From Lachnospiraceae bacterium (GTDB taxonomy: Bacteria > Bacillota > Clostridia > Lachnospirales > Lachnospiraceae): a stretch of DNA of 64,000 bases. This document shows positions 5,146 to 20,308 of this stretch, piece by piece; the first letter of the stretch is position 1; each line of letters starts with the position of its first letter. Both the position numbers and the translations under genes were made by a program. The DNA lies in contig CAJTEY010000020.1 of NCBI GenBank assembly GCA_910575775.1, positions 1-64,000 of the forward strand. Direction: 5' to 3'. The notes beneath the pieces were generated by a model. The model was given only the letters and a program-made list of their open reading frames with translations, did not search any database and was not told the origin of the DNA.

Positions 5146-6195
5146 ATGAAGCAAATTCATAATATCAAATATTTTCAAACTATTATACTTCCAAGACTCA
5201 TCCTTATCATAACTCTTGCCCTGTCTTGTATCGTATGGACCGGCTGTGCACGAAACACGACGCCCATCTCCCGAACCGATTTCTACTTTGACACGGTCAT
5301 CCAGATTACCCTGTACGACACGGAAGACGAATCGGTTCTGGACGGGTGTTTTGCACTGGCAGAAAAATATGAGAATCTGTTCAGCGCCACGAAAGAAGGC
5401 TCGGATGTGTGGAACATCAACCACGGAAACGGAAAAACCGTCACCGTATCGGAGGAGACGGCTGCCCTTCTTGTGACAGCGGCAGACTGTGCTAACACAA
5501 CAGAGGGCGCTATAGATCCCACCATCCGCCCGGTCAGTGCACTCTGGAATTTCGGCTCTGACAGCGAACCGCATGTGCCGGAAGACGCCGCCATAAAAGA
5601 GGCGCTCTCCCACGTCTCCTACGAAAATATCCGCTTCGGCACTGCTCTCTCAGATGAAACCGGCGAACCCGTCTACCGCACCGTCACCCTGGCTGACCCG
5701 GAAGCCGCCGTCGATCTTGGATTCATCGCAAAGGGATATATTGCAGACAAAATGAAAGAATATCTGCTCTCACAAGGCGTAAAAAGCGCCTGTATCAGTC
5801 TGGGTGGCAATGTGCTTGCCATCGGCGAAAAGCCGGACGGTTCCCCCTTCCGCATCGGCATACAGGAGCCATTCGCCGAATCCGGGAAGTCCCTTGACAC
5901 GGTAGAGATCCGGGATACCTCTGTCGTGACCTCCGGGATTTATGAGCGATGTTTCTATGAAAACGATGTGCTCTATCATCACGTCCTTGACACCGCCACC
6001 GGCTATCCTGTTGAGAACGAGCTGGCCGGAGTGACCATTATATGTCCTTCCTCCGTAAAGGCTGACGCGCTCTCCACCGCCTGTCTCTGTCTCGGACTGG
6101 AAAAAGGGCGGCAGTTTCTTGATGGAGAAAAGGACGTGGCCTATCTTTTGGTTACGAGAGACGGCACACAGTACCGCTCGGTAAATTTCCCTTGA
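5146..6195 (+). CDS. apbE: FAD:protein FMN transferase (ApbE), lipoprotein
   Basis: A 349-residue flavin transferase exported through a lipoprotein signal (hydrophobic stretch about 10-26 ending in WTGC). ApbE attaches FMN through a phosphoester bond to Thr of (S/T)GAT motifs in RnfG, RnfD and related proteins, using FAD and Mg2+. Recognisable parts are FYFDTVIQITLYD, GAIDPTIRPVSALWNFG, VDLGFIAKGYIAD and ISLGGNVLAIG, followed by the metal-site region VVTSGIYERCF and the C-terminal SSVKADALSTAC. The frame is open upstream into the esterase remnant, but the ATG at 5146 starts the signal peptide. Its probable clients are RnfD and RnfG, encoded at 21-22.6 kb of this window. Confidence 0.93.
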   Translation: MKQIHNIKYFQTIILPRLILIITLALSCIVWTGCARNTTPISRTDFYFDTVIQITLYDTEDESVLDGCFALAEKYENLFSATKEGSDVWNINHGNGKTVTVSEETAALLVTAADCANTTEGAIDPTIRPVSALWNFGSDSEPHVPEDAAIKEALSHVSYENIRFGTALSDETGEPVYRTVTLADPEAAVDLGFIAKGYIADKMKEYLLSQGVKSACISLGGNVLAIGEKPDGSPFRIGIQEPFAESGKSLDTVEIRDTSVVTSGIYERCFYENDVLYHHVLDTATGYPVENELAGVTIICPSSVKADALSTACLCLGLEKGRQFLDGEKDVAYLLVTRDGTQYRSVNFP

Positions 6196-6272
6196 ACCGG
6201 CTGCACTTGCTCTTCGCAGCATACTGCGGCTGAATGCAGGACAAATGATAGCCAGACATTCATGCCGACCCG

Positions 6273-7523
6273 TCACCTCCGCATCCGCCTCGACCACCCT
6301 CTCACAGCAGGCGGCAGACACAGAACCCCGATCACAAGCGGCACCCAGATCAACAGATAGGGCGACCAGATATACTGTCCAAATATCCGAAATGTATTTG
6401 TCCGGAAAATATCTGCGCCGCTTCCCACCAAAGGCAGCAGATCAAACGCCTTTTCTAACAGGAAAGGCACACGGTTTCTGAGAGCCATCGGCACATATAC
6501 CATCGAAAGACTGAGAAGCAGCGCCAGCACATGATTCTTACAGCGCGCTGAGAACAGCATCGAAACGCCCGCAAAGCCCCATGCACCGAGCAGGGTGAAC
6601 ACATACTCGTAAATTTCCGCCTGCAGCACATTCATGGGCGCGATTGCAATCATTTTAACCGTCTGTATGGGCATATCCCACCCTTCCGTCCCCAGAAAAA
6701 CAAGCTGTGAACCGATCATCCCCGCAGCTGTCAGCGCAAATAATTCCAACGTAAACGAAAGCCCTGTGAACACCTTTGCACATGCAAGTTTTCGCCATCC
6801 GTTTTTTGTCGTCAAAACGAGCGGGCTTGTATTGTCATGCCACTCTCCGGCAAACAGGGACGAAAGGACGATTGCCAGAAACAACGCTATCACGCTTTCC
6901 AGACCAGATACCGTATTTCCCAGAATATTCGACCACCCTTCCACCCATTTCCATGAAAAAGGCGTCTTCACCTTTTCGTTGATACGCAGTAAATAGTCCC
7001 GCTCCGCCTCTGTCTGTCCGCTGATATCGAGAAATGTCTCTATCGCCTGCTCCCTCCTTTCATAAATCCCCGTAAGTTTTTCCGGCTCCACATAGCAGCT
7101 CATAATCATAACGGCAAACATGTCCGGTTTCTCCAATTCCGGATAAAGTGTCTTAAGCATACTGTTTACCGTCTCCCATCCCGTGTTCTGGTATTGTTTC
7201 AGTATTTCCTTATTTTTACCCCCCTGTTTACTTTCTTCTTCCACCACCGCCTCATTGAGCCGCTGATAATCCCTGACCCATTCCTGCAGTGTCTCGTCTG
7301 TCAGTTCCCCGTATTTATGAAAATAAGTCTGACAGTCCTTTATATTCTCATACCCGTCAAAATATCTGCTGCCCGTCCCATAATCTTTTCTGCTTCCGAA
7401 AGTGAGCCACTGATAGACCAGAACGCTCCCTAATATCACGCAGTAAAAAAAACATAACAGGACACAGACCCGGGTGCTGTTTTTCCGCCATAGTTTTTTA
7501 TGTTCCAGTTTGAATAATTCCAT
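6273..7523 (-). CDS. ABC transporter permease
   Basis: A 416-residue membrane protein of the ABC-2 permease type. It has a hydrophobic helix near the N-terminus (about 19-40), a large extracytoplasmic or loop region up to about 210, and then about five more hydrophobic segments to the C-terminus. The cargo is unknown. ATG at 7523 has GGGAGG eight bases upstream. It is the last gene of a four-gene minus-strand set (ECF sigma factor, membrane protein, ATPase, permease), 25 bases after the ATPase stop. Similar single-ATPase/large-permease pairs include bacitracin and lantibiotic self-protection exporters. That comparison is by architecture only. Confidence 0.8.
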   Translation of the reverse strand: MELFKLEHKKLWRKNSTRVCVLLCFFYCVILGSVLVYQWLTFGSRKDYGTGSRYFDGYENIKDCQTYFHKYGELTDETLQEWVRDYQRLNEAVVEEESKQGGKNKEILKQYQNTGWETVNSMLKTLYPELEKPDMFAVMIMSCYVEPEKLTGIYERREQAIETFLDISGQTEAERDYLLRINEKVKTPFSWKWVEGWSNILGNTVSGLESVIALFLAIVLSSLFAGEWHDNTSPLVLTTKNGWRKLACAKVFTGLSFTLELFALTAAGMIGSQLVFLGTEGWDMPIQTVKMIAIAPMNVLQAEIYEYVFTLLGAWGFAGVSMLFSARCKNHVLALLLSLSMVYVPMALRNRVPFLLEKAFDLLPLVGSGADIFRTNTFRIFGQYIWSPYLLIWVPLVIGVLCLPPAVRGWSRRMRR

Positions 7524-7548
7524 TCCCAATTCCTCCCAGTTTGTCTTT

Positions 7549-8418
7549 CTATTTCGGATATTCACGCATAGAATACAGGTACAAATCCTCCAGCCCTGCC
7601 TCACAATGTGCCGCCCCCTCTGCCGGCTTAACATCTGACAGTATACGCAGCACCACCTGTTCCCCCTCATGCCGCAGATTGGCGACCGCCGCCTTCTCCT
7701 GCCAGATTTTTGCTTCTGACGGGGATACAGTCAGTTCCCACACCTTCCCTGCCGCCTTTTTCGTCAATTCCGAAACCGTCCCCTGTATCAGCACCTTTCC
7801 CTTTTTCATCAGCAGCACTTCGTCTGCAATGGCTTCAATATCCGACACGATATGAGTGGAGAGAAGGACGATTCTGTCCCCTGCATAGTCGGAGATCAGA
7901 TTGCGAAAACGCACCCTTTCTTTTGGGTCTAACCCCGCCGTCGGCTCATCCAGAATCAACAGCTTCGGATCATTTAAAAGCGCCTGCGCGATCCCCACAC
8001 GCTGTTTCATGCCTCCCGAAAAAGTTTTCATTCTCTTTCCCTTCACATCGCTCAAGTCAACGATCTCCAGAAGTTCCTTTACGCGTTTCTTTGCCACATC
8101 CCTTGGAATGCCTTTGAGTGCGGCCATATACCGCAGAAACTCCTCCGCCTTATAATTCGGATAATACCCAAATTCCTGCGGCAGATATCCAAGCACATCC
8201 CTGTAATCAGCGCCCATAGACGTAATCTCCCTGCCATCCAGAAACACTTCTCCCGAGGTGGATTCTAAAATGGCGCACAGCATACGCATAAACGTTGTCT
8301 TTCCCGCTCCATTTTCACCAAGCAGACCATATACACCCGGGGTTAAAACCGTGCTGACACAATCCACCGCTATTTTCCTTCCGTAATGCTTCGTCAGACG
8401 GTCAACCGATAATTCCAT
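7549..8418 (-). CDS. ABC transporter ATP-binding protein
   Basis: A 289-residue ATPase with Walker A GENGAGKTT (about 34-42), Q-loop GYLPQEFGYYP, signature FSGGMKQRVGIAQ, Walker B LLILDEPTAGLD and switch His in LLSTHIVSD. The C-terminal 70 residues form the variable region common to BcrA/CcmA-like exporter ATPases. It overlaps the start of the upstream membrane-protein gene by 17 bases, suggesting coupled translation, and it precedes the permease gene. It should energise export by the adjacent permease. The substrate is not indicated by the sequence. Confidence 0.92.
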   Translation of the reverse strand: MELSVDRLTKHYGRKIAVDCVSTVLTPGVYGLLGENGAGKTTFMRMLCAILESTSGEVFLDGREITSMGADYRDVLGYLPQEFGYYPNYKAEEFLRYMAALKGIPRDVAKKRVKELLEIVDLSDVKGKRMKTFSGGMKQRVGIAQALLNDPKLLILDEPTAGLDPKERVRFRNLISDYAGDRIVLLSTHIVSDIEAIADEVLLMKKGKVLIQGTVSELTKKAAGKVWELTVSPSEAKIWQEKAAVANLRHEGEQVVLRILSDVKPAEGAAHCEAGLEDLYLYSMREYPK

Positions 8419-9169
8419 ATAATTTTCCCTCCCTCTTTTTCTCGATAATCAACCTTATTTCCCTCCCAAAAAATCCGGCAAAAGCAATAAACAGGATCAT
8501 CCACACACCCACCGCAGATGTCTCATAGACTTGCGGCATCTTAGTTGCCGATATGCCCCAGACCAAACAATAACCTGTCGTCGCCACCGCGCATACTGGC
8601 AGCCTCTCTTTCCTCCGCAGTCTGATCAGTCGCAGGATGGTCGTCATACAAACCAGATAAGGCACCAGACCGTACAAAATGATCTGCCCGGTTCCCTCCC
8701 CCGATTGCTGCCTATACATAGCCAGCCCTAAAACCACTGTAATTCCTATCAGATTCACCGCGCCCGCAAGAATCAGTTTGGCAAGTATGATCTCCGCGCC
8801 GGAAGCCCTTGTCACCGCCTCCATTTCACCCATTTTGTAAAACTGGCTGCGAAGCAGTGTCGGCATAACAGCCAGCGCAAACAGCGGTGTAAATGCCGGA
8901 ACATAATGCATTACATCCTCTATTATGCCAAGCTGTATGCAGATCAGAAATAATACCCCCGCCTGCAGACTGAAAGTCAAAAACCCCTCAAACCGAAAAA
9001 CATCTGACAAAAACTGCCAGAAGCCCGTTCTCTCTTCTTCCCTGCAATCCCCATACCGGCTCATCACTTCCCTACAACACGCAACAGTTTCCGCCTTTTT
9101 CTCAGCTCTAATTTCTTCACCCTGTCTAAAAGAATCCCTCAAATATCTTTCCAATTCCCTGCTATTCAT
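8402..9169 (-). CDS. Six-helix membrane protein between sigma factor and ABC ATPase
   Basis: A 255-residue protein. The first about 60 residues are soluble, charged and helical (ERYLRDSFRQGEEIRAEKKA). About six hydrophobic segments follow, and the C-terminus is basic. It sits immediately after an ECF sigma gene (8-base overlap) and overlaps the ATPase gene, so it belongs to the same transcript. By position it could be the anti-sigma factor, with the soluble N-terminal part binding sigma, or a second permease subunit. No zinc anti-sigma HxxxCxxC motif is present. ATG at 9169 has GGAGG ten bases upstream. I do not recognise the family. Confidence 0.75.
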   Translation of the reverse strand: MNSRELERYLRDSFRQGEEIRAEKKAETVACCREVMSRYGDCREEERTGFWQFLSDVFRFEGFLTFSLQAGVLFLICIQLGIIEDVMHYVPAFTPLFALAVMPTLLRSQFYKMGEMEAVTRASGAEIILAKLILAGAVNLIGITVVLGLAMYRQQSGEGTGQIILYGLVPYLVCMTTILRLIRLRRKERLPVCAVATTGYCLVWGISATKMPQVYETSAVGVWMILFIAFAGFFGREIRLIIEKKREGKLYGIIG

Positions 9170-10415: not shown

Positions 10416-10585
10416 AAGTTATTTCTTCCCTTCTTCTAAAACCGCTCTTTCCTTCGCCTCGTTGGAAGGCGGATGGCAAATAAATCAGGTCACAGGAATA
10501 TCATAGCAAAAAAAACATCCGCAGACAATTATGTCCTCCAAACCTGCCCTTTTGTCCTTCAGATGCGATCGGAAATCTCAAGTAA

Positions 10586-10620
10586 CGGAAAAAGGAGCGT
10601 GAATTGTCACACGCTCCTCA
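10586..10620 (-). terminator. Rho-independent terminator
   Basis: On the minus strand GGAGCGTG pairs with CACGCTCC across an 8-nt loop, followed by TTTTT. It lies directly after the RNHCP gene stop at 10624. Confidence 0.8.
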
Positions 10621-10623
10621 ATT

Positions 10624-11049
10624 TCAGGATATACTGCCCGCACCGCCCATCAGCCTTGTCATCTCCTCAATCCGCTCAATCGGAAACGGTGATGAGGTAA
10701 GCGGTTTCATTGCAATAGACATCAGCTTCATGGGATTATCGTCCGCCGCTATCCGATTCGAACTCATCTGCCCGCACTGTCGGCACCGATGTATGATCGC
10801 CCACTCCCCGTTTTTCCTGACCCAGACCGCCACAGGCTCCATATAGCCGCCGCAGTCCGAGGCCCGGTCACCCGGCTCCACATCCACATGCAGGCTTGTC
10901 AGACAATTCGGACAGTGATTTCTGTGTCTGCTGCCCGCGCCGTCCGGCACCACCTGACGCCCGCATACCTTGCACACAAAACTTTCATTGCAGGCGTGAT
11001 TTTTGTAATATCCCTTTTCAAAAGTCTTTCTTTTATTTTCCCTATTCAA
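10624..11049 (-). CDS. RNHCP domain zinc-ribbon protein
   Basis: A 141-residue protein of the RNHCP family, named for the motif seen here as SRHRNHCPNCLTSLHVD (about 40-56). Further metal-binding pairs are CKVCG at about 26-30, the RNHCPNC pair, and CRQCGQ near 94. The family is annotated as a predicted zinc-binding domain of unknown function. The gene lies 12 bases after the Mor-like regulator gene and shares its transcript, ending at a strong terminator. Confidence 0.85.
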   Translation of the reverse strand: MNRENKRKTFEKGYYKNHACNESFVCKVCGRQVVPDGAGSRHRNHCPNCLTSLHVDVEPGDRASDCGGYMEPVAVWVRKNGEWAIIHRCRQCGQMSSNRIAADDNPMKLMSIAMKPLTSSPFPIERIEEMTRLMGGAGSIS

Positions 11050-11061
11050 TTGTATTCCCTC

Positions 11062-11361
11062 CTAATCGAATCCATATTGCTCCATAGGAGGTGTCACTTG
11101 CATTTCCCTAAGAATCCTCTGTATGCTCTTTTCTGTCAGATAATACTGATGCGCCAGTTCTTTCGTGGAAATGCCCTTCTGGTGCTGGTCAAAAATCTGT
11201 TCATTTCTGATCCGAAGTTTCTCATTCACACCCGTTGAAGACCCCCACCTTCTTCTGCATTCCTTTTTCTTAGGCACATAAATCGCCTCGCCGCTCACAT
11301 ACGTCTGCAGGATCTCAAGAATATTTTCCGGCAGAATCTCATCCGCCCGTTTATAGCTCAT
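11062..11361 (-). CDS. CD3324/Mor-like helix-turn-helix protein
   Basis: A 99-residue DNA-binding protein resembling the C-terminal part of Mor transcription activators and the CD3324 family of Clostridia. The core is IYVPKKKE, then RRRWGSSTG, then a C-terminal helix-turn-helix (GISTKELAHQYYLTEKSIQRIL, residues about 63-84). An AGGAGG site lies five bases before ATG 11361. Dyads lie 33-80 bases upstream, a natural place for self-regulation. It is co-transcribed with the RNHCP gene. The regulon is unknown. Confidence 0.85.
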   Translation of the reverse strand: MSYKRADEILPENILEILQTYVSGEAIYVPKKKECRRRWGSSTGVNEKLRIRNEQIFDQHQKGISTKELAHQYYLTEKSIQRILREMQVTPPMEQYGFD

Positions 11362-11393
11362 AGCTGCCTCCTAATCGTTTACTTTAGGAAACG

Positions 11394-11441
11394 CAATGGC
11401 TATCACAATTTAAATTTGAAATGTCATAGCCATTGCTATGA
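11394..11441. promoter_or_regulatory. Paired dyads upstream of the Mor-like gene
   Basis: Perfect 10-bp arms CAATGGCTAT (11394-11403) and ATAGCCATTG (11426-11435) are separated by 22 bases. The second arm is itself half of a 6-4-6 palindrome CATAGC-N4-GCTATG ending at 11441. Position relative to the start at 11361 fits an operator or a leader hairpin. The rest of the 11442-11580 spacer shows no gene. Confidence 0.45.
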
Positions 11442-11580
11442 TACCGCAGCCTCCTTCATCAAACACCTCACTCCTTCTCCTGCTTCTATACGGAATATGT
11501 CCGTCTTTTAAAACTTCATACAATCTTATTTTACATACTGACTTAAGAAAATACAACCTCATAAAAACTTCCAAAAATTT

Positions 11581-12444
11581 TTATTCCATTAGTTCTTTTG
11601 CCGCCTGATAAGCCTCCACGGTCGTGCCAATCCCCTCGCATGCTCTCTCCAAATCCACACGAAAACTCTCCATCACATGATTCACATTAGAAACTAAGGT
11701 ACGGGCAGTCTCCTTCTGTGCCTGCTCCATGCCTTTTTCCATACCTTTTCTAATTCCCCGCTCCTCAGCCCAGTTCAACCGCCGGTAATAATCATCACGC
11801 GCTTCCGACTGCATCCTCGCTTTTTCATCTGCAGTCAATTCCTTATAAGTAAATATACATTCCTTAATGGATTCATCCCTTTCCGCCAACATCCGCATCT
11901 CCTCCCATGTTTCCGCCTTGAATAGCTGCGCCCAATTATAGATCTCTGGTCTTATCTGTTCGTCCAATTCCTTTTTCAGTTGATTTAATTGTAGCACACG
12001 GATTGACATTTTATCACTATATTTATGTGCGGTATCTAAGTTATAAAAGTAATATTCCAAATACAGTTTTTCTGGAAAACCCTGCGGCGTAAAGTTAAGA
12101 ATTCCAATATGTATAGTTTCCTTCACATCCAAATACTTATCCCCTTTTTCCAACTGATCAAATGCTCTGCACAGATAAGCCAGAGACCTCTCTGACCAGT
12201 TTCCCTCGTCAACAACCTGCATCTCAATATCCAAAATACGGCTGTCATTCAATTCAAGCTTTAAGTCCAGCATCATCTTTTTCTCATCTATCATGCCTCC
12301 TATTTCGATGGGATTCTGTATTCTGACAACCACAATCTCCTCCATCCGCATATGCAGCAAAGCGCATAGCAATCCCTTTAGCGCCGTCTGATTTCTTTGC
12401 AGCACCGCTTTAAACATAAAATCATTCGTCAACGGATACCTCAA
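11581..12444 (-). CDS. Rpn-family recombination-promoting nuclease / PD-(D/E)XK transposase-like
   Basis: About 287 residues. The N-terminus YPLTNDFMFKAVL and the nuclease core (DLKLELNDSRILDIEMQV, with D...ExQ catalytic spacing, then RSLAYLCRAFDQLEKGDKY) define the Rpn/PD-(D/E)XK family. These are stand-alone nucleases stimulating RecA-independent recombination in Escherichia coli. The C-terminal third is a charged helical repeat (GIRKGMEKGMEQAQ). No ATG precedes the core: a TTG at 12444 overlaps the stop of the upstream gene (TTGA) and has CAGGA just before it; another TTG lies at 12465. No terminal repeats were found around it. Confidence 0.85.
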   Translation of the reverse strand: MRYPLTNDFMFKAVLQRNQTALKGLLCALLHMRMEEIVVVRIQNPIEIGGMIDEKKMMLDLKLELNDSRILDIEMQVVDEGNWSERSLAYLCRAFDQLEKGDKYLDVKETIHIGILNFTPQGFPEKLYLEYYFYNLDTAHKYSDKMSIRVLQLNQLKKELDEQIRPEIYNWAQLFKAETWEEMRMLAERDESIKECIFTYKELTADEKARMQSEARDDYYRRLNWAEERGIRKGMEKGMEQAQKETARTLVSNVNHVMESFRVDLERACEGIGTTVEAYQAAKELME

Positions 12445-13172
12445 TTTTCCTGCCGGGAGTTCCAATTCAGTTCAAAAACATTTTCTATGTTTTCTTCTGT
12501 CAACTCATACCATACAGCATCACTTTTTGCGTCTTGACGGCGCACGTCTTCATCAAATTCCGCCGCAGAATACGGTTCCCCGTCCGCCAGATACTGTATC
12601 TCCAGGTTGCGTTCAGAATTGTAATAAGATTCCACGCAATACCGTCCGTCTGTCAGGCAGGCATCTTCTGAAAAACGCAGTTTTGCAATTCCCCAATCTG
12701 CATACCCTCCCGAATAAATGAAAGTTCCGTCTGATTTCAACTGCATAAACTCTCTGTAACCCAGCGTATAACCGCATACCGTTCCTTCCTGATACCGCAG
12801 AATCTCAAACCCGTAATCCAGCGCATCATTCACTACGATCCAGAGTATGACTTCCTCTTCCCCATCGCCATCCAAATCCAAAACAGCAAATCTGTCCGCA
12901 GCTGCTGTCATACTGCCATCCTCTTCTTCATCGGCATCATCCAGAAACAGCTCTGTGAAATTTTTAACATTTACTCTCTTATTTTGACTCCATGTTTCAG
13001 CGCAGACAAAGTCCTCATCCCCTAAAAGCGCCGCCTGAAAGCTTTTTTCCAGCGTTTTTACGGTTTCTGTCTCATCCGCTATCTTTTCGCGCGGTCCCTG
13101 CGCCGATACTTCGGAACCAAGAAGAACCGTAAGAAAGCATATCCATATGACTGCTCTGCTCACTTTTGTCAT
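12441..13172 (-). CDS. Secreted protein with Asp-rich repeat
   Basis: A 243-residue protein with a Sec signal peptide (residues 1-24, MTKVSRAVIWIC to VSA). A mature domain carries VLDLDGDGEEEVILWI (about 100-115), a calcium-loop motif of FG-GAP/VCBS style. An acidic stretch DDADEEEDG precedes it. ATG 13172 begins the signal peptide and lies eight bases after the aldo-keto reductase stop, so it is probably read from the same transcript. It ends overlapping the Rpn gene. The function is unknown. Confidence 0.72.
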   Translation of the reverse strand: MTKVSRAVIWICFLTVLLGSEVSAQGPREKIADETETVKTLEKSFQAALLGDEDFVCAETWSQNKRVNVKNFTELFLDDADEEEDGSMTAAADRFAVLDLDGDGEEEVILWIVVNDALDYGFEILRYQEGTVCGYTLGYREFMQLKSDGTFIYSGGYADWGIAKLRFSEDACLTDGRYCVESYYNSERNLEIQYLADGEPYSAAEFDEDVRRQDAKSDAVWYELTEENIENVFELNWNSRQEN

Positions 13173-13180
13173 GCCGCTTT

Positions 13181-14206
13181 TTACACCGTCACCTTCCCCG
13201 CCAGCACGTTCTTGTAATCCTCCAGATTCTTCGCCAGAAGTGCGGGCGTATCCAGATTGTAGGGGCATCTGCCCTTACACTGTCCACAGTGCAGGCATGC
13301 CTCAATCTTTCCCATTTTCTCCTGCCATACCTCTCCCAGATAATCTGCTGATGGCGCACGGCGTATCATCAAGGACATTCTCGCGCACATACTGATCTCA
13401 ATTCCTGCCGGGCACGGCATACAGTAACCGCAGCCCCGGCAGAATTCGCCTAAAAGCTCCGCCCTGTCCTTGTCAATCAACGCCTTAATCTCCTCTGTCA
13501 TGGCCGGCGGATTGTCTATGTAAGAGAGAAATTCGTCAAGCTCAGCCTCCCTCTGCACACCCCAGATAGGCAGCACATTGTCATACTGCGCCAGATACGC
13601 GTATGCCGCCGCCGAGTTGGTAATCAGACCGCCGGAAAGCGCTTTCATGGCAATAAAGCCCATGTCCGCCGCCTTACACTTCTCCACCAGCTCAATATCC
13701 TTGTCCGTCGCCAGATAGCAGAACGGGAACTGCAATGTCTCATAGAGACCACTGTCAATGGCCTCGTGCGCTACGGCCAGGCGATGGTTCGTAATGCCGA
13801 TATGCCGGATCTTTCCCTGCTCTTTTGCCTGGAGCGCCGCATCATAAAGACCGCTCTCATCCCCCGGCTTCGGGCAGAATGCCGGGTTGTGGAACTGGTA
13901 AATATCAATGTAATCCGTTTTCAGATTGGTAAGGCTGGTCTCTAAGTCTTTCCAAAACCCCTCTGCATTCTGCGCCCCCGTTTTGGTGGCAATTATCACT
14001 TTCTCCCGCATCCCCTCAAAGGCAAGCCCGACTTTATGCTCGCTGTCCGAATACATTCTGGCCGTGTCAAAGAAGGTCATGCCGTTCTCATATGCCTTCC
14101 TCAAAAGCGTGACCGCCGCCTCATCCGAAATCCGCTGGATCGGCAGCGCACCGAACGCGTTCTTATTTGTCTCAATTCCTGTCTTACCAAGTTTAATTGT
14201 CTGCAT
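13181..14206 (-). CDS. Aldo/keto reductase with C-terminal ferredoxin-like domain
   Basis: A 341-residue two-domain oxidoreductase. The aldo-keto reductase barrel (about 1-245) has catalytic Asp and Tyr in FFDTARMYS, Lys in IIATKTG and His in DIYQFHNP. The C-terminal part carries two cysteine clusters, CRGCGYCMPCPAGI and CLHCGQCKGRCPYNL, matching [4Fe-4S] sites. Such fusions are common in anaerobes; the substrate is unknown. GGAGG lies five bases before ATG 14206. It follows the TerY-C-like gene by 41 bases on the same strand, so it may be read with the signalling cassette, though a link in function is not shown. Confidence 0.92.
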   Translation of the reverse strand: MQTIKLGKTGIETNKNAFGALPIQRISDEAAVTLLRKAYENGMTFFDTARMYSDSEHKVGLAFEGMREKVIIATKTGAQNAEGFWKDLETSLTNLKTDYIDIYQFHNPAFCPKPGDESGLYDAALQAKEQGKIRHIGITNHRLAVAHEAIDSGLYETLQFPFCYLATDKDIELVEKCKAADMGFIAMKALSGGLITNSAAAYAYLAQYDNVLPIWGVQREAELDEFLSYIDNPPAMTEEIKALIDKDRAELLGEFCRGCGYCMPCPAGIEISMCARMSLMIRRAPSADYLGEVWQEKMGKIEACLHCGQCKGRCPYNLDTPALLAKNLEDYKNVLAGKVTV

Positions 14207-14247
14207 CGCAACCTCCGTTATTTTTGAACGATTCTCTTCTTCCCATC

Positions 14248-14595
14248 CTACAAATCCCCGCCGGAGCCAAACCCCGAACCGTCATAACTGCCAAGCGTCC
14301 CGGACAGCCCGCACCAGTTACATGTAAAATGTGTATCGTTTCCGTTATGACAGTTCAGTTTCCCACAGTTACAGATCACGAAATCTTTCGTTCTGCAGTA
14401 CGGGCAGCCCGGATATCCGTTGTCTGGGAATATCTGTCCTACAATCTTAGTCTCATCGTAATGCTCCCTCTTTGCGGCCGCCTCTTTTACAGGAAAAGCC
14501 CATGTATATTTCCATCCGCCCTCCAGTTTCTCGAAACGGACGCCATATATGTTTTTTCCTTCTTTGCACTTACAAAGGGCAATTCGTGCTTCCAT
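14248..14595 (-). CDS. TerY-C-type zinc-binding protein
   Basis: A 115-residue protein. The C-terminal half has the pattern GCPYCRTKDFVICNCGKLNC then CNWCG, matching the TerY-C metal-binding domain found next to TerY vWA proteins. The tail is Gly/Ser/Asp rich. It closes a five-gene minus-strand cassette with kinase, LRR protein, vWA protein and PP2C phosphatase. The family has been proposed, from comparative genomics of tellurite-resistance-like systems, to work with the kinase-phosphatase-vWA triad. ATG at 14595 is preferred because the N-terminal extension of the longer frame lacks family features. Confidence 0.75.
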   Translation of the reverse strand: MEARIALCKCKEGKNIYGVRFEKLEGGWKYTWAFPVKEAAAKREHYDETKIVGQIFPDNGYPGCPYCRTKDFVICNCGKLNCHNGNDTHFTCNWCGLSGTLGSYDGSGFGSGGDL

Positions 14596-14670
14596 CCCTA
14601 TAGCCCCGCTCCTTTCCCAAATCCCAAAACATCCAGACTGCAATGCCTGAATCATTTCCTATCTCGTCAA

Positions 14671-15525
14671 TCAGGCGCCTTCCGAAGACCCGGACTGCAA
14701 GATCTGCTCCGCCTCATAGGCAAACAGAGCCGTGATATCGTCACCGCACCCCATCTCGCTTGTCTCCTGCAGCCATGCTTTCAACCTGCCGGACACAGCC
14801 TTCACGCCATGTTCCGCAAGAAGAGCGTAGTAATCCATACATGTTTTCTGAAACTCTTCCTCATTTTTATAGCTGTTGGACATTCCGTCGGAGGAGAGCA
14901 TGTACATGACGGGCAGCCGCTCATTTTCTTCCCGTTTCCGCGTCAGCGTGACCGCCTTCTTCCAGGACTCCGCCTTGCTGAGCGAATGCGTTTCCGTCCC
15001 GAGAATCTTATCCGCCTCGATTACGCTGTATACGCCGCTCTCTGACACCTTCACGATATCCCCGTCGCCAAGCTGAAAGGCAAAGAGAAACTCCTCTGTA
15101 ATGACCAGTCCAAGCAGCGTGCTCCCATACAATTTATAAACCGCTTCCCTGTCTTTGTTCTGGTTTTCATCGACAGGAATACTCCTCCTGCATCTGGTAT
15201 GTAATTTCAAGATCCTGCGCTTCCACTCGGCGTCTATCTCCCTCGCAATCTTGGTATCTCCCTCCCGCGTTAAAAAGGTAAAGAGCATTTCCTGCCGGCC
15301 TGCATAGGTATCCAGATAGTCGCCCATGATTCTGCAAAATACATTGACAGCCGTCAGGGATCCTGTCTTACTGTAAGGGCAGGCATCACTGCCATGTCCA
15401 TCCGCCACAGACAGAATCACTGCGCCAGAATCTTTTACCTCCTTTTTCAGACTGTCCTGGCACTCCCTGCCAATTCTTATATGGGATGCGCCCTGTACGG
15501 ACGCGCCGAATACGCTTCGTATCAT
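14671..15525 (-). CDS. PP2C-family Ser/Thr protein phosphatase
   Basis: A 284-residue metal-dependent phosphatase, presumably reversing the kinase encoded in the same cassette. PP2C motifs are intact: SVADGHGSDACPYS (first metal Asp), FQLGDGDIVKV, MLSSDGMSNSY and GCGDDITALF. The enzyme should therefore be active. ATG 15525 has a GAAAGGG site nine bases upstream; ATG 15543 and a TTG further out are alternatives. It follows the vWA gene by 39 bases or less. No membrane segment is present, so it acts in the cytosol. Confidence 0.9.
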   Translation of the reverse strand: MIRSVFGASVQGASHIRIGRECQDSLKKEVKDSGAVILSVADGHGSDACPYSKTGSLTAVNVFCRIMGDYLDTYAGRQEMLFTFLTREGDTKIAREIDAEWKRRILKLHTRCRRSIPVDENQNKDREAVYKLYGSTLLGLVITEEFLFAFQLGDGDIVKVSESGVYSVIEADKILGTETHSLSKAESWKKAVTLTRKREENERLPVMYMLSSDGMSNSYKNEEEFQKTCMDYYALLAEHGVKAVSGRLKAWLQETSEMGCGDDITALFAYEAEQILQSGSSEGA

Positions 15526-15564
15526 ATGCCGCACCCTTTCCATCAAGTACAAATTCTCACACCG

Positions 15565-16278
15565 CTACCAGACATCGCCATCCTGGATATCATCCAGATC
15601 GGGAATCCTGCCACCCATATCGACAATGACCGGGGCATCCCCGTCCTGCCCTGCGGTATCCGCCGCAATACTTGCCGGAGCCGATACAAGCGAAGCTGCA
15701 GTGGACGCCCACTTGATCATCTTCGTGAGGGCCGCCGCATTGTTCGCCTGCAGCACCAGTTCCTTGTTCCCTGTAAACTCCTCTAAAACGGCATCGTCCG
15801 CATCCTGGCCGATGGAAATGGCAATCTTAACCGCTTTCTTTCCCCAGGGCAGTTTTTTCAACTCCGTCAATGCCTTTTTATAATCATCTGTGGGCTGTCC
15901 ATCCGACAAAAGCACCAGTACGGGCGGAAGCGCCCTGTCTGACATCGGCGGAATTGTGAGCTGTGCCGCCAGAAGTTCAAATGCCTTTCCGAGATCAGTC
16001 ACGCCAACGGCCTCCAGATCATCCCACGCAAAGTCTTCCACATTGACGGGATTGCTCGTCACCCAGGAAGCCCCGGTGGAAAATTTCAAAGTACGGATCA
16101 TCAGCTGCGCATTCGGATTATTTTCCGCCGCAGATACCATCTCTGGTATGGTAGACTGGATGGCATGGTTCACCGTGCCGATTTTCTCTCCATACATGGA
16201 ACCGGAGCAGTCCACAATCCAAAAAAAATGAAGCGGTCTGCTCGCCAGCTCTCCTCCCGGTCTTTTCATCTCTCCCAT
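15565..16278 (-). CDS. TerY-like von Willebrand factor A protein
   Basis: A 237-residue vWA-domain protein without signal peptide. The MIDAS motif is DCSGSMYG near residue 22, with the matching VTDLGKAFE Thr/Asp and VLLSDGQPTDDY later. It is close in style to TerY of tellurium-resistance islands, whose members sit with PP2C and kinase genes as here. GGAGG lies seven bases before ATG 16278. It probably binds partners of the cassette in a metal-dependent way. No other ter genes (terB, C, D, E) lie in the window. Confidence 0.88.
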   Translation of the reverse strand: MGEMKRPGGELASRPLHFFWIVDCSGSMYGEKIGTVNHAIQSTIPEMVSAAENNPNAQLMIRTLKFSTGASWVTSNPVNVEDFAWDDLEAVGVTDLGKAFELLAAQLTIPPMSDRALPPVLVLLSDGQPTDDYKKALTELKKLPWGKKAVKIAISIGQDADDAVLEEFTGNKELVLQANNAAALTKMIKWASTAASLVSAPASIAADTAGQDGDAPVIVDMGGRIPDLDDIQDGDVW

Positions 16279-16296
16279 GATCATTCCTCCTTCACG

Positions 16297-17490
16297 TTAC
16301 GCCCTCACGCATCTGATCTGCCAGGCCCTGGCATACTGCATGGCATAAGAACCGCTATTGCAGCGGATTGTAAAGTTCTCATGCCGCTCATCGGGTTCCC
16401 CAAATGTCTTCAAAAAGCCTGTCCCTTTACCGCCTCCGATTTCTGTCACAGAATCTGGTATATAAATGCTTTCCAGACTTTTACAGCCGGCAAAAGCGCC
16501 CTCCTCAATGCTCGTCACCCCTTCCGGGAGATCCACACTCTGCAAGGCATCGCAGCCTTCAAAGGCCGATATCCTGACTGTATCAAGCTCCTGCGGGAAC
16601 ACGACCTCCCGCAGGCTTTTACACCAGCGGAATGTATTTTCCTTTATTTCCTTCAACTTACCCGGCAGCGCTGCCCGTCTGAGCTGCCCGCAGCCGGCAA
16701 AGCTGTTTTCTCCGATAAATTTCACGCTGTCCGGCACTCTGATCTCCTCCAGGCCACTGTACTCAAAAGCGCCCTCGTATTTGATCTCGCTCCCCAGGAT
16801 CTTGGGACATCCTGTGGCGTCCGTGCTGCCAATGCACCTCAGGGATTCCGGCAGTACCGCCTCCTTTAAACCTCTGCAGTTTAGAAACACTCCGTTTCCC
16901 AGCATTTCAATGCCATCGGAAATGACAATCCTCTCAATGCCGACGCACCCCTTAAAGGCATAATTGCCGACTGCGATCACCTTTTTTCCCTCGATCATAT
17001 TGGGAATCACCACAACAGGCTCATCGAAATCCATGTATTTCAGAATCCGCAGTCCCCTTGACGTCTCCTCGTACTCATACAGACTGTCACTCTCACAGGG
17101 AACCCACTCTTTTTTCGTTGACAGACCGAAATCCCCTCCGCCTCCCAAAGGCGTCTCTTCTTCTCTTTGCCCGGCCCCGCCATCCAGCAGCAGCCCCAGT
17201 GCCTTCGCCCATGACATAACGGCCGTTTCGGCGCTTTTCGTCCTGACGTCATATCCAAGCTCAATGGATCTGACAAAACGGTGCAGGGTCATTTTATCGA
17301 TCTGTTCAAGACCCTTCATCTCACCGACAATACCGTCATCATATACAAGCATCAGCAGGTTTCGCTTCCGCCTGTCCTGCGGAAACAAATCCAGGAGAAG
17401 AGCCTGCAGTCTCTTTCTGTCAGTAAGCGCATCGGGATAATTCTGTAACAGACCCGCCAAAACTTTATCGTCTTCCATACCCGCTATCAT
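16297..17490 (-). CDS. Cytosolic BspA-like leucine-rich repeat protein in the kinase cassette
   Basis: A 397-residue protein with two parts. The N-terminal about 105 residues form a helical unit (RLQALLLDLFPQDRRKRNLL, RFVRSIELGYD, AVMSWAKALGL) that I cannot name. From about 155 on there are BspA-type leucine-rich repeats, for example YAFKGCVGIERIVISDGI, FAGCGQLRRAALPGKLKEI and FAGCKSLESIYIPDSVTEI. BspA repeats are usually on surface proteins, yet there is no signal peptide or membrane helix here. The start overlaps the kinase stop (ATGA), so the two are translationally coupled. It may be a target-recognition or adaptor subunit of the kinase; that is inference. Confidence 0.85.
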   Translation of the reverse strand: MIAGMEDDKVLAGLLQNYPDALTDRKRLQALLLDLFPQDRRKRNLLMLVYDDGIVGEMKGLEQIDKMTLHRFVRSIELGYDVRTKSAETAVMSWAKALGLLLDGGAGQREEETPLGGGGDFGLSTKKEWVPCESDSLYEYEETSRGLRILKYMDFDEPVVVIPNMIEGKKVIAVGNYAFKGCVGIERIVISDGIEMLGNGVFLNCRGLKEAVLPESLRCIGSTDATGCPKILGSEIKYEGAFEYSGLEEIRVPDSVKFIGENSFAGCGQLRRAALPGKLKEIKENTFRWCKSLREVVFPQELDTVRISAFEGCDALQSVDLPEGVTSIEEGAFAGCKSLESIYIPDSVTEIGGGKGTGFLKTFGEPDERHENFTIRCNSGSYAMQYARAWQIRCVRA

Positions 17491-18794
17491 GCTCCTCCAT
17501 GAAATTCTCCCGTAAGCTGCCCAAAATCAATCTTTGTACCCCTTGCAATCGCTGCGGAACGGCCCTGCGGCACGGAAACCTGCGTTCCGTCCGCCTTGAT
17601 GTACGTCCAGTTATCCCCGGACAGATTTCTGATCCCCCACAGTTTCGGGTTTGCCGGATTCTGCACCACCTCACCGACAACAGTCTCCATATCATAATTC
17701 CCTGCAATGTGATGCTGATACAATTTCGTGTTGGACATCAGCAGAACCGTATTTTTACCAATCACAATGCGGGGCGGAACGGTTACTGCTTTCTGGCATC
17801 CCCAGCAAGTGTGCGCGACACCGTTTTCTTCCTTCTGCACATCGTAAAATACCTCGCTGCCGCAATTCTGACAGCGCATCATGCCGGACATGAGATTCGC
17901 GAAAGTCTCCATCCACCTGCCCTCCGTGATCCGGCGGTTAGGCTGCCTGAGCCCTACGGTAAAAGATGTGATAAACAGATCCCTGACCTGCTGTGGATAC
18001 AGATCCCAGAAAATAAGGGCATTGTCCTGATATCCCGCAAGAGGCCGGTTGTCCTTGTTGTCCGGGTCAAAGATAAACAGCGGATCCGTCCCATACAGCA
18101 TGTTCATGGCAGGGATATCCATGCACTTGATCCGCGCCTCTCTCTTTCCCTCCAAAGGGTGATTTAACATAAACATGTAAAATAACAGCACCGCCAGCGA
18201 AAAGAGATCCGTGTTCCGGGACGGTTTTGCCTTCCCTGTCACAATTTCAGGCGCCATAAAGCGGGGAGTACCGTACACGCCGGTTTTCGCCCCGTTGTAA
18301 GAAACGTTGTCGTTATCGCAGATCAGCACATCGCCCGTATCCGGATCGAAAAAGACATTGCCAAAAGAAATATCGCGATAGCTGTAACCCTTTCCATGCA
18401 ACGCATGATACCCTCTGGTCAGATGATACGCCGCCCTGCAAAGGCAGTAAAAGGAAGGCTCCGCCTTTCTCTTCATCATATCAACAATGCTTCTGTAATT
18501 TTTCGGGCGAAGCGGCATAATATAGCCAAAGGATTCCCCATATGCCCGAAAAATCATATCCTGCGGCCATAGGAAAGACGCATCCGGCGGGCCACTCTGA
18601 ATCAGATTATCCAGAATTTCTTTCTGGTTTTTGGTGGCGGTATTTTTGTAATACCACTTGAGGGCATACAGCTTATTCCCGGCCTCCACAGAATATACTT
18701 CCCCCTGTCCGCCGGCGCCAAGCAGTTGTTTTACCGTATATCGGCTTCCGCTCTCGGAAGTGAGAACCGTTCCGCTCTTCAACTGTCCTTCCAT
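17487..18794 (-). CDS. Protein kinase with zinc ribbon and FHA-like C-terminus
   Basis: A 435-residue soluble kinase. Kinase domain: Gly loop LGAGGQGEVYSV, Lys in LYALKWYY, catalytic loop YSYRDISFGNVFF (Tyr replaces the usual His of HRD), metal site CDNDN in place of DFG, and FMAPEI. A CxxC...CxxC zinc ribbon follows (CQNCG...CWGCQ, about 313-335), then an FHA-like beta domain (about 345-430, RIVIG to FGQL). The upstream ATG at 18824 lies inside a hairpin with no ribosome site; ATG 18794 has AGGGAG and is chosen. First gene of the five-gene cassette. Confidence 0.88.
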   Translation of the reverse strand: MEGQLKSGTVLTSESGSRYTVKQLLGAGGQGEVYSVEAGNKLYALKWYYKNTATKNQKEILDNLIQSGPPDASFLWPQDMIFRAYGESFGYIMPLRPKNYRSIVDMMKRKAEPSFYCLCRAAYHLTRGYHALHGKGYSYRDISFGNVFFDPDTGDVLICDNDNVSYNGAKTGVYGTPRFMAPEIVTGKAKPSRNTDLFSLAVLLFYMFMLNHPLEGKREARIKCMDIPAMNMLYGTDPLFIFDPDNKDNRPLAGYQDNALIFWDLYPQQVRDLFITSFTVGLRQPNRRITEGRWMETFANLMSGMMRCQNCGSEVFYDVQKEENGVAHTCWGCQKAVTVPPRIVIGKNTVLLMSNTKLYQHHIAGNYDMETVVGEVVQNPANPKLWGIRNLSGDNWTYIKADGTQVSVPQGRSAAIARGTKIDFGQLTGEFHGGA

Positions 18795-18826
18795 GTTACC
18801 GTTCTCCCTGTTTTTTAATTCCATGC

Positions 18827-18921
18827 GGAGAATGCCCGTACTCGGGGCATTCTCCTACGCGAAACTTAGTACTTCTTGGCGAAGCAGCCTTTGCTGCTGA
18901 GCTTTAGAAGTACTTTTCGCG
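18827..18921 (-). repeat. Structured intergenic element, copy 1
   Basis: Two adjacent hairpins fill the spacer after rnfB. One is GGAGAATGCCC/GGGCATTCTCC (18827-18855). The other is a long one (18858-18921) with arms CGCGAA/TTCGCG, GTACTTCT/AGAAGTAC and apical GCAGC-CTTT-GCTGC. A second copy with the same plan lies at 25264-25354. The element begins three bases after the rnfB stop on the minus strand. It may end or protect the rnf transcript; no T tract follows. Confidence 0.7.
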
Positions 18922-18924
18922 ATT

Positions 18925-19716
18925 TTATACAATTACTTTCTTCGGACACTTTTCCTTACATGTCCCGCACCCGGTACATTTCTCCTGATCAATAATTGCA
19001 TGGAAATCCTCAATCACAATCGCGTCCGCCGGACAGTTCCTCTTACAGAGCTGGCAGGCGATACAGCCCACATCGCAGGCTTTCATGGTCACAGGCCCCT
19101 TTTCCTTTGAGCTGCAGGCCACCACATGTTTGGCATCATAAGGAATCAGCTCGATCAGATGCTTCGGGCAGGCAGCCACACACTTGCCGCATGCCTTACA
19201 TGCCTCCTTATCCACCACCGCTACGCCGTTTACCACATGAATGGCGTCAAACGGACATGCTTTCACACAGCTGCCGAAACCAAGACAACCGTCATTACAG
19301 GATTTCGGTCCGCCGTTGGGCACAAACGCCACCATAGCACAATCCTCGATACCTGTGTAATCATAGTCCACGCGTGTGCGCTCCTTGTCACCGCGGCACT
19401 TCACAAATGCCGTCATGCGCACGCTCTCACCGGCCTCCACGCCCATGATCTGCGCCACCTGCGCTCCTACTTTTTCACCGCCCACAGGGCAGGCATTTGC
19501 AGGCGCCTCCCCCTTTACAATCGCAGCCGCCAGGCCGGAGCATCCCGCATAGCCGCAGCCGCCGCAGTTATTTCCCGGCAGAACACCTAAAATGGCCTCC
19601 TCCCGCTCATCCACATCTACCTTAAACTTAATACCTGCCACGCCGAGGAACAGACCCACGAACAGGCCTACCGCTCCCACAATTCCCGTAGCCATCAAAA
19701 TTCCCGCTATGTCCAT
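18925..19716 (-). CDS. rnfB: Rnf complex iron-sulfur subunit RnfB
   Basis: A 263-residue subunit with one N-terminal membrane helix (about 4-26). Next is the Fe-S cluster motif NCGGCGYAGCSG...CP (about 50-77) and then four CxxCxxCxxxCP-type ferredoxin motifs (CNDGCLGFGSCVKACP, CKACGKCVAACP, CIACQLCKRNCP, CTGCGTCKEKCP). It is the entry point for electrons from reduced ferredoxin into the ion-pumping Rnf complex. ATG 19716 has AAGGGGG eight bases upstream; the frame extends upstream but only into rnfA. Last gene of rnfCDGEAB. Confidence 0.96.
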   Translation of the reverse strand: MDIAGILMATGIVGAVGLFVGLFLGVAGIKFKVDVDEREEAILGVLPGNNCGGCGYAGCSGLAAAIVKGEAPANACPVGGEKVGAQVAQIMGVEAGESVRMTAFVKCRGDKERTRVDYDYTGIEDCAMVAFVPNGGPKSCNDGCLGFGSCVKACPFDAIHVVNGVAVVDKEACKACGKCVAACPKHLIELIPYDAKHVVACSSKEKGPVTMKACDVGCIACQLCKRNCPADAIVIEDFHAIIDQEKCTGCGTCKEKCPKKVIV

Positions 19717-19729
19717 ACCTTCGTCCCCC

Positions 19730-20308
19730 TTAGAGTAATCCGGAAAATCCGCAGAACGCAATCGCCATCAGTCCCGCCGTCACCAGCACAATCGGCATTC
19801 CCTGAAAAGATTCCGGTATATCATTGTATGTCATCTTCTCCCGGATTCCCGCAAGAATAATAATGGAAATGGTAAAGCCCGCCGCTGTGGCGAAGCCATT
19901 GACTACTCCAGTTAGTATCCCGTAATTCTTCTGCACGTTGGTAAGCGCCACACCGAGCACCGCGCAGTTGGTCGTAATCAAGGGCAGATACACGCCAAGC
20001 GATTGATACAGCCCAGGAATAAATTTCTTCAAAAACATCTCAACAAACTGCACCAGCGCCGCAATGACCAGAATAAACACAATGGTCTGCAGATAGGCGA
20101 TGTCAAAGGGAAGCAGGATAAACTGGTAAATCGCTCCCGCCACCGCTGAAGCCAGTGTAATGACAAAAATAACCGCCACACCCATGCCCGTTGCAGTCTC
20201 CGTCTTCTTGGACACGCCAAGGAAGGGACACAGTCCCAGAAACTGACTTAAAACCACATTATTTACCAGGGAGGACGCAATCAGGATCATCAATAATTCT
20301 TTAATCAT
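19730..20308 (-). CDS. rnfA: Rnf complex membrane subunit RnfA
   Basis: A 192-residue, six-helix membrane subunit of the Rnf ferredoxin:NAD+ oxidoreductase, paralogous to RnfE. The conserved half-helix motif NNVVLSQFLGLCPFLGVS near the N-terminus, and the Cys in ITTNCAVLG, match the residues that hold an intramembrane iron-sulfur centre between RnfA and RnfE in related complexes. ATG 20308 has GGGGGAG seven bases before it and overlaps the rnfE end by eight bases. Six-gene operon. Confidence 0.96.
   Translation of the reverse strand: MIKELLMILIASSLVNNVVLSQFLGLCPFLGVSKKTETATGMGVAVIFVITLASAVAGAIYQFILLPFDIAYLQTIVFILVIAALVQFVEMFLKKFIPGLYQSLGVYLPLITTNCAVLGVALTNVQKNYGILTGVVNGFATAAGFTISIIILAGIREKMTYNDIPESFQGMPIVLVTAGLMAIAFCGFSGLL

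Follow-up and report, generated by a model that had tools for sequence, protein, structure and literature searches.

TerY-P phosphorylation switches are known from genome comparison, where they feature in defence and stress systems, and how one such core comes to serve diverse inputs is an open question. The TerY-P triad was reportedly described by Anantharaman, Iyer and Aravind in 2012, and a TerY-C zinc domain forms part of its make-up. Here we analyse a five-gene cassette at positions 14248-18794 of a 64,000-nucleotide stretch of DNA (hereafter the window) from a Lachnospiraceae bacterium (assembly GCA_910575775.1, contig CAJTEY010000020.1, positions 1 to 64,000). In order of transcription it encodes a protein kinase (K), a leucine-rich repeat (LRR) protein (L), a vWA protein (V), a PP2C phosphatase (P) and a TerY-C protein (T). 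By its defining parts the cassette is a TerY-P triad, here in a version that adds an adaptor-LRR protein as putative recognition subunit. It probably acts, with somewhat better than even confidence on our part, as a phosphorylation switch in which the LRR protein is a dedicated recognition subunit, docked through its N-terminal domain (NTD) onto a core with exchangeable partners.

The sections of PMC11090510 that treat the triad describe a vWA protein with a metal-ion-dependent adhesion site (MIDAS), a PP2C phosphatase and a Ser/Thr kinase with a C-terminal zinc ribbon. The cassette is assigned to this triad because its kinase with zinc ribbon, PP2C, MIDAS-bearing vWA and TerY-C protein fit that description. 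It differs in lacking TerD and TerB anywhere in the genome, in having an NTD-LRR protein within the gene order and in its place behind housekeeping-type genes. The same triad is also found within helicase and nuclease operons, whereas no helicase or nuclease genes were recognised beside the window cassette. According to the same sections, which cite Gao 2020, TerY-P-like modules with an OB-fold kinase are stand-alone antiphage systems. In the relevant parts of PMC4978471, the Helicobacter pylori TerY-P island is stable in location and has lost its mobility; it shares the triad with the window but has AAA+ helicase, nuclease, McrB/McrC-type and secretion genes, and those parts name no LRR gene. 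A kinase with zinc ribbon and a beta-rich domain, a PP2C and a stand-alone vWA protein are further placed near GAP1-N2 systems, restricted to actinobacteria, in the corresponding section of PMC7159879. The window shares these three proteins, including a kinase with zinc ribbon and a further domain, but no GAP1 or GTPase gene was recognised by eye in its positions 1-24000.

Two described groups resemble the LRR protein rather than the triad. Effector-associated domains (EADs), for which the pertinent text of PMC7159879 proposes like-with-like pairing of two proteins, are like the NTD small and mostly helical, with many fusion partners and conflict-system neighbourhoods (sections of PMC7159879 and PMC8195603), and, as with EADs, several NTD copies share a neighbourhood in some relatives. 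Unlike that arrangement, the window genome has one NTD match and not copies on two proteins. BspA-type LRR_5 proteins (e.g. TpLRR, 6mlx) share the LRR_5 part, whereas the window protein has an added N-terminal domain and is inherited together with a kinase cassette.

The initial annotation had described five close-set minus-strand genes and assigned each to a family. All five open reading frames (ORFs) are indeed intact and in place (Table 1), and every product exceeds the Pfam cut-off of its family, with 67.5 bits against 31.7 for Pkinase, 136.9 against 27.7 for LRR_5, 32.7 against 23.8 for VWA, 114 against 24 for PP2C_2 and 36.6 against 28.4 for TerY_C. Thus the proposed TerY-P-like triad of kinase, PP2C and vWA with TerY-C is borne out in its defining parts. 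Across 10 sequences from 9 lineages there is no variation in the kinase lysine K46, the HRD-type aspartate D141 and asparagine N146 and the metal-binding aspartate D160, the DFG motif being DND, or in the four zinc-ribbon cysteines C308, C311, C330 and C333; zinc-ribbon Pfam matches are weak and below cut-off. The vWA protein was said to have an intact MIDAS, and D23/S25/S27...T94...D126 are invariant in 7 sequences from 6 lineages. From general knowledge of these families, we take the conserved kinase, zinc-ribbon and MIDAS residues to be functional motifs. Alignment also backs the kinase start at 18794 and the vWA start at 16278. For the TerY-C protein the family was right and the start was not: although the ORF opens at 14655, the protein is taken to begin at 14595, because a MEARIAL start is conserved in 8 sequences. 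The suggestion that the kinase tail is FHA-like was not sustained. Conserved as P..lWGikNls..W....G....v..G....i..G..i.FG, the tail matched no Pfam family at E<=10 in any of 10 sequences, and its profile matched no PDB sequence at the same threshold; the kinase model, with a mean predicted local distance difference test score (pLDDT) of 42, is too poor for judging whether the tail has an FHA or an OB fold, and a degenerate FHA fold may have escaped these sequence searches.

The LRR gene is firmly bound to the cassette within the genus. Among 77 genomes of the window's genus the vWA gene occurs in 43 and rnfB in 71, and cassettes were compared at one locus per genome in 41 of the 42 other vWA genomes (G314, a contig-end fragment, was excluded). 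All 42 genus cassettes, window included, carry the LRR gene, and a chance grouping, which the gene's absence from related cassettes had been expected to reveal, was accordingly set aside. The kinase gene is found in 41 of the 42, the contig of L071 ending before it, and PP2C follows vWA in every one. A scan with the LRR protein returned 23 loci, of which 19 (L002-L020) are full relatives and four have LRR similarity alone; 14 of the 19 are labelled Lachnospiraceae and the rest Clostridiales, Butyrivibrio or just bacterium. As L002-L020 partly duplicate the genus genomes, the counts given here come from the latter. The stop/start overlap that had been read as coupling kinase and LRR protein is real in the window, at 4 bases, but a spacing of -4 recurs in just 12 of the 41 compared cassettes; judging from conservation, the LRR protein may instead begin at MEDD, 12 bases further downstream.

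By eye the N-terminus of the LRR protein is charged and helical, and the whole-protein model has a mean pLDDT of 73.9. The NTD, roughly the first 105 residues, was noted from the outset as helical and unnamed, and this still holds. When 13 NTDs were compared with Pfam at E<=10, none gave a significant match; four families were touched by one member each (best E 0.049). EAD models are present in Pfam, and none of the four families is an EAD. The best PDB-sequence match, human PDCD10 (E 0.12), was taken as chance. No description of the NTD was found in the literature searched, the founding 2012 TerY-P paper lying outside that search. TerY, PP2C and LRR are absent from the main text of the 2026 BREX diversity paper PMC12839542, and none of five sought words occurs in PMC10853773.

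Evidence in favour of docking comes from other lineages, in which homologous NTDs co-occur with the same kinase subfamily on quite different proteins. By alignment and profile, the NTD is present in LRR proteins of L029, L030 and L031 and in a second L029 protein, on a Sel1-repeat protein in L032, on an FGE-domain protein in L116 and on three proteins in L117, the profile having been blind to the last two loci. On a Methylomonas plasmid (L123, Pseudomonadota), five consecutive NTD proteins stand behind kinase, vWA and PP2C-like genes and carry Sel1, a part without named family, Tim44, Clp_N and a ClpX zinc finger. A divergent form occurs on a Prevotella plasmid (L124, Bacteroidota) and in L131 and L132 from a viral collection; it matches the standard NTD profile with an hhalign probability of 94.6 (E 7e-8). 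L029, L117, L123, L124, L131 and L132 each have several NTD partner proteins per neighbourhood, and several NTD proteins have C-terminal parts without family match. Among 12 loci outside the window having both the kinase and the vWA of the subfamily (L029-L033, L116, L117, L123, L124, L131, L132, L134), the NTD is nearby in 10, or in 11 of 13 with the window; L130 (kinase at contig end, no vWA, no NTD) and L133 (cut duplicate of L132) were excluded. The LRR partner, constant within the genus, is found in only 4 of these 13 (window, L029, L030, L031), so that across lineages the NTD is the steadier companion. Furthermore, the NTD was found in none of five divergent TerY-P loci (L125-L129) and in none of 16 other loci, two of which (L026, L027) have other kinases, and no kinase or vWA segment of the relatives' loci matched its profile. 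In 250 genomes of the family, vWA and NTD profiles matched 7 each with 6 in common, the NTD match outside the vWA set being a 41-residue stretch with a stop in G202 (E 6e-5); in 398 genomes of the phylum they matched the same 3, and in a class sample the vWA profile matched 1 of 245, the window genome itself. Phage records yielded one divergent TerY-P locus (L128), and the viral collection five loci with the kinase profile and one with the vWA profile.

Three of these loci hold further observations. The five tandem NTD genes of L123 span 10480-15016; the two fused to Clp_N and to a ClpX zinc finger lack the corresponding ATPases and might serve Clp proteolysis as decoys or adaptors. On the Prevotella plasmid L124, the gene at 17675-18618, whose annotation is DNA translocase FtsK, contains an NTD (E 4.9e-28, stop-to-stop segment) and lies fairly close to TerY-P and exonuclease genes. 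Beside the NTD-Sel1 cassette of L032, positions 5172-8831 hold an ORF of 1219 residues, one part of which resembles a kinase (kinase profile 3.9e-10); TIR-like and WD40-like parts were made out by eye.

Taken as a mechanism, the NTD would dock onto the TerY-P core and the LRR part would bind a cytosolic ligand or client, so that binding turns the kinase on or delivers its substrate, the direction of signalling being our inference. Bridging or gating of the complex may fall to the Mg-dependent vWA protein together with the zinc domains, and PP2C would reset the switch. LRR, Sel1, FGE-type, Clp_N and ClpX zinc-finger domains are mainly binding domains. For this reason the LRR protein is read as a recognition subunit, an early proposal that fits these partners and is put forward as interpretation. 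The FGE-type domain also shares its fold with C-type lectins (relevant section of PMC8195603). As the NTD bears other binding modules in other lineages, one core could take different inputs or targets. With just one NTD match in the window genome, like-with-like pairing of two proteins is impossible there, and the NTD should therefore bind a core protein or itself.

Several points weigh against this proposal. L033 and L134 have no detectable NTD, and thus the TerY-P core may work without it. The NTD profiles were partly trained on the loci and genomes that they scored, which makes the positives partly circular and leaves the negatives unaffected; finds by blind profiles are those in L116, L117, L123, L131 and two further L124 proteins. 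Three hypothetical L124 proteins were negative with the A7 profile (E 0.042, 0.11 and 0.7), one of which was later matched by the A10 profile. The seven NTD helices come from a weak model, with pLDDT of 49-74 in 10-residue blocks. In addition, the fold searches used the whole LRR model, and the LRR proteins that they retrieved matched it chiefly at residues 131-397.

Within the genus, gene order is near-constant and two chromosomal sites recur. Of the 41 compared cassettes, 23 read rnfB-K-L-V-P-T-AKR (AKR, aldo/keto reductase), four rnfB-K-L-V-P, one rnfB-K-L-V-P-T and 10 ilvA-K-L-V-P, while three, including L071, are cut by contig ends. With the window, which has the first of these orders, 24 are complete, so that the five-gene order does recur. 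The second site, in 10 genomes, lies behind ilvA, and smc- and ftsY-like genes precede it, as seen by eye in the four loci read fully (L049, L055, L056, L060). Median spacings are 39 bases for rnfB-kinase (range 15-285; 29 genomes, window included), 1 for kinase-LRR, 12 for LRR-vWA, 5 for vWA-PP2C and 45 for PP2C-TerY-C. Medians are quoted because values of -1161 to -1194 for kinase-LRR (L049, L052, L065) and -348 for PP2C-TerY-C (L041) are artefacts of start and stop finding, and one of -143 (L062) is probably another. The TerY-C protein is bound less tightly than the others, being found in 33 of the 77 genomes; it is missing from G282 and G286, which have the rnf site, and from 8 of the 10 genomes with the ilvA site. 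In G264, G288, G277 and G279, TerY-C and vWA genes are on different contigs, and G275 (C47:3461-3814) has a TerY-C protein without a TerY-P vWA gene.

The cassette is inherited clade-wise and is under purifying selection. On a tree of rnfA and rnfB whose 63 rows comprise 29 with the cassette at the rnf site, 7 with it at the ilvA site and 27 without it, built by a quick method that leaves 15 of 60 inner branches open, the three cassette states need 7 changes against 25.7 in shuffles. Median dN/dS (nonsynonymous to synonymous rate ratio) is 0.033 for the kinase domain, 0.037 for vWA, 0.039 for AKR, 0.040 for rnfB and 0.065 for TerY-C, and rises to 0.095 for LRR, 0.100 for PP2C, 0.105 for the kinase tail, 0.126 for the NTD and 0.154 for the zinc ribbon region; unsaturated pairs alone were used (60-194 per part), and such medians may hide positive selection at single sites. 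The cassette thus resembles a long-established pathway that has been maintained, more than it does a fast-moving island.

These sites and this inheritance make an anti-phage function unlikely, although it remains a live rival because of the neighbours of relatives. In such a system the LRR protein would recognise a phage component, and the kinase would phosphorylate host or phage proteins and stop infection without a nuclease. Restriction or BREX-type genes do accompany three NTD-bearing relatives: the gene run of L029 includes BrxL and a PDC-S37-like helicase-nuclease gene, truncated where the fetched sequence begins, in L132 PglX, PglZ and BrxL directly precede TerY-C, kinase, vWA and a PP2C-like gene, and a type ISP restriction enzyme lies ahead of the L131 kinase. 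The kinase is also remotely similar to MAD6 and PD-T4-6 models, and the antiphage modules with OB-fold kinase in the sections of PMC11090510 noted above point the same way. However, the cassette follows clades at its two sites in the genus, its flanks there are rnf and AKR genes or ilvA with no defence gene recognised alongside, and the LRR median dN/dS gives no overall arms-race signal (single sites may differ). PADLOC models gave no match for the four non-kinase proteins at E<=1, and inspection by eye of window positions 1-24000 revealed no defence system, the rest of the genome not having been scanned for defence. The defence switch first suggested for this locus is therefore backed by the surroundings of some distant relatives and opposed by the core-looking sites of the cassette itself.

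A regulator of energy or redox metabolism, which would sense metal, redox or Rnf state and phosphorylate Rnf, the Fe-S aldo/keto reductase or related enzymes, is a weaker candidate still. The position is suggestive, as the cassette follows rnfB in 29 genomes, 24 of them with the complete order through the reductase, and two of its parts bind zinc. Yet rnfB persists without it: the rnfB region was fetched for 27 of the 34 vWA-lacking genus genomes and held no cassette gene, and the reductase follows rnfB directly in 26 of the 27 (L104 has no reductase match). Since this junction recurs without the cassette, it suggests that Rnf and the Fe-S aldo/keto reductase are functionally linked. The 10 ilvA-site genomes likewise have an empty rnf site in all 7 fetched rnf loci, and in other genera the relatives lie among different genes. 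The ilvA site and the empty rnf sites were the grounds for discarding a strictly Rnf-linked role. Finally, that the cassette is a module for tellurite or metal stress whose ter genes were lost is very improbable despite the TerY-C protein, the zinc ribbon and a terD-like gene seen by eye before the kinase in L031, for the absence of ter genes noted initially holds genome-wide for TerD and TerB (other ter families were not searched), and TerD occurs in 1 of the 77 genus genomes (G281), which has no vWA gene.

The coordinates of the cassette, its parts and its flanks are collected in Table 1. The upstream flank is presumably rnfB, so named from its Fe-S domain make-up and the neighbouring genes. 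Between it and the kinase gene, region 18791-18930 folds at -53.7 kcal/mol with ViennaRNA, a value without shuffle control, and the two strong stem-loops there match nothing in Rfam; with up to 3 mismatches allowed, the window contains a 22-base stretch of them once. Scans for promoters (5 against 4.5 in shuffles) and terminators (8 against 4.6; standard deviation 2.3 each) were not used. Downstream, positions 11581-12465 hold a PDDEXK_2 (Rpn-like) transposase-family gene, and several of L002-L020 have homologues of it close to their cassettes.

Table 1. Features of the TerY-P cassette and its flanks, in window positions.
Feature	Positions	Strand	Basis
Ser/Thr protein kinase, TerY-P type, with C-terminal zinc ribbon and tail, 435 aa	17487..18794	-	Pkinase 1.6e-18
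Kinase zinc ribbon C308, C311, C330, C333	17796..17873	-	invariant columns, alignment A8
Kinase C-terminal tail, FHA assignment not supported	17487..17783	-	no Pfam or PDB match at E<=10
LRR protein, helical NTD and BspA-type LRR_5, 397 aa	16297..17490	-	LRR_5 4.4e-40
N-terminal helical domain (NTD), residues 1-105 of LRR protein	17176..17490	-	recurs in TerY-P neighbourhoods
LRR_5 part, residues 138-397 of LRR protein	16300..17079	-	
vWA protein, intact MIDAS (TerY-like)	15565..16278	-	VWA 1.1e-7
PP2C-type protein phosphatase	14671..15552	-	PP2C_2 9.3e-33
Stand-alone TerY-C zinc protein	14248..14595	-	TerY_C 36.6 bits; alignment A4
rnfB, upstream flank	18925..19761	-	Fer4 and FeS domains; flank conserved
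Aldo/keto reductase (AKR) with C-terminal 4Fe-4S domain, downstream flank	13181..14206	-	Pfam; relatives
Two stem-loops between rnfB and kinase gene (18858-18921, 18827-18855)	18827..18921	-	

Beyond the window, and more tentatively, the NTD may be the founding member of a family of docking domains, as yet without a name, through which LRR, lectin-like FGE, Sel1, Clp_N and ClpX-type adaptors plug into the kinase core of one TerY-P subfamily. Such a family would range over the window's phylum and Methylomonas and, in divergent form, Prevotella; it would stand beside BREX and other restriction genes in some lineages, whereas in this Lachnospiraceae genus it would have become a signalling pathway that depends on the LRR protein and is maintained. 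The window cassette offers a simple version for testing this idea, with one partner, one NTD match in the genome and no nuclease seen adjoining. If the idea is true, a recurring docking domain with exchangeable modules would explain how a single TerY-P core gets different inputs.

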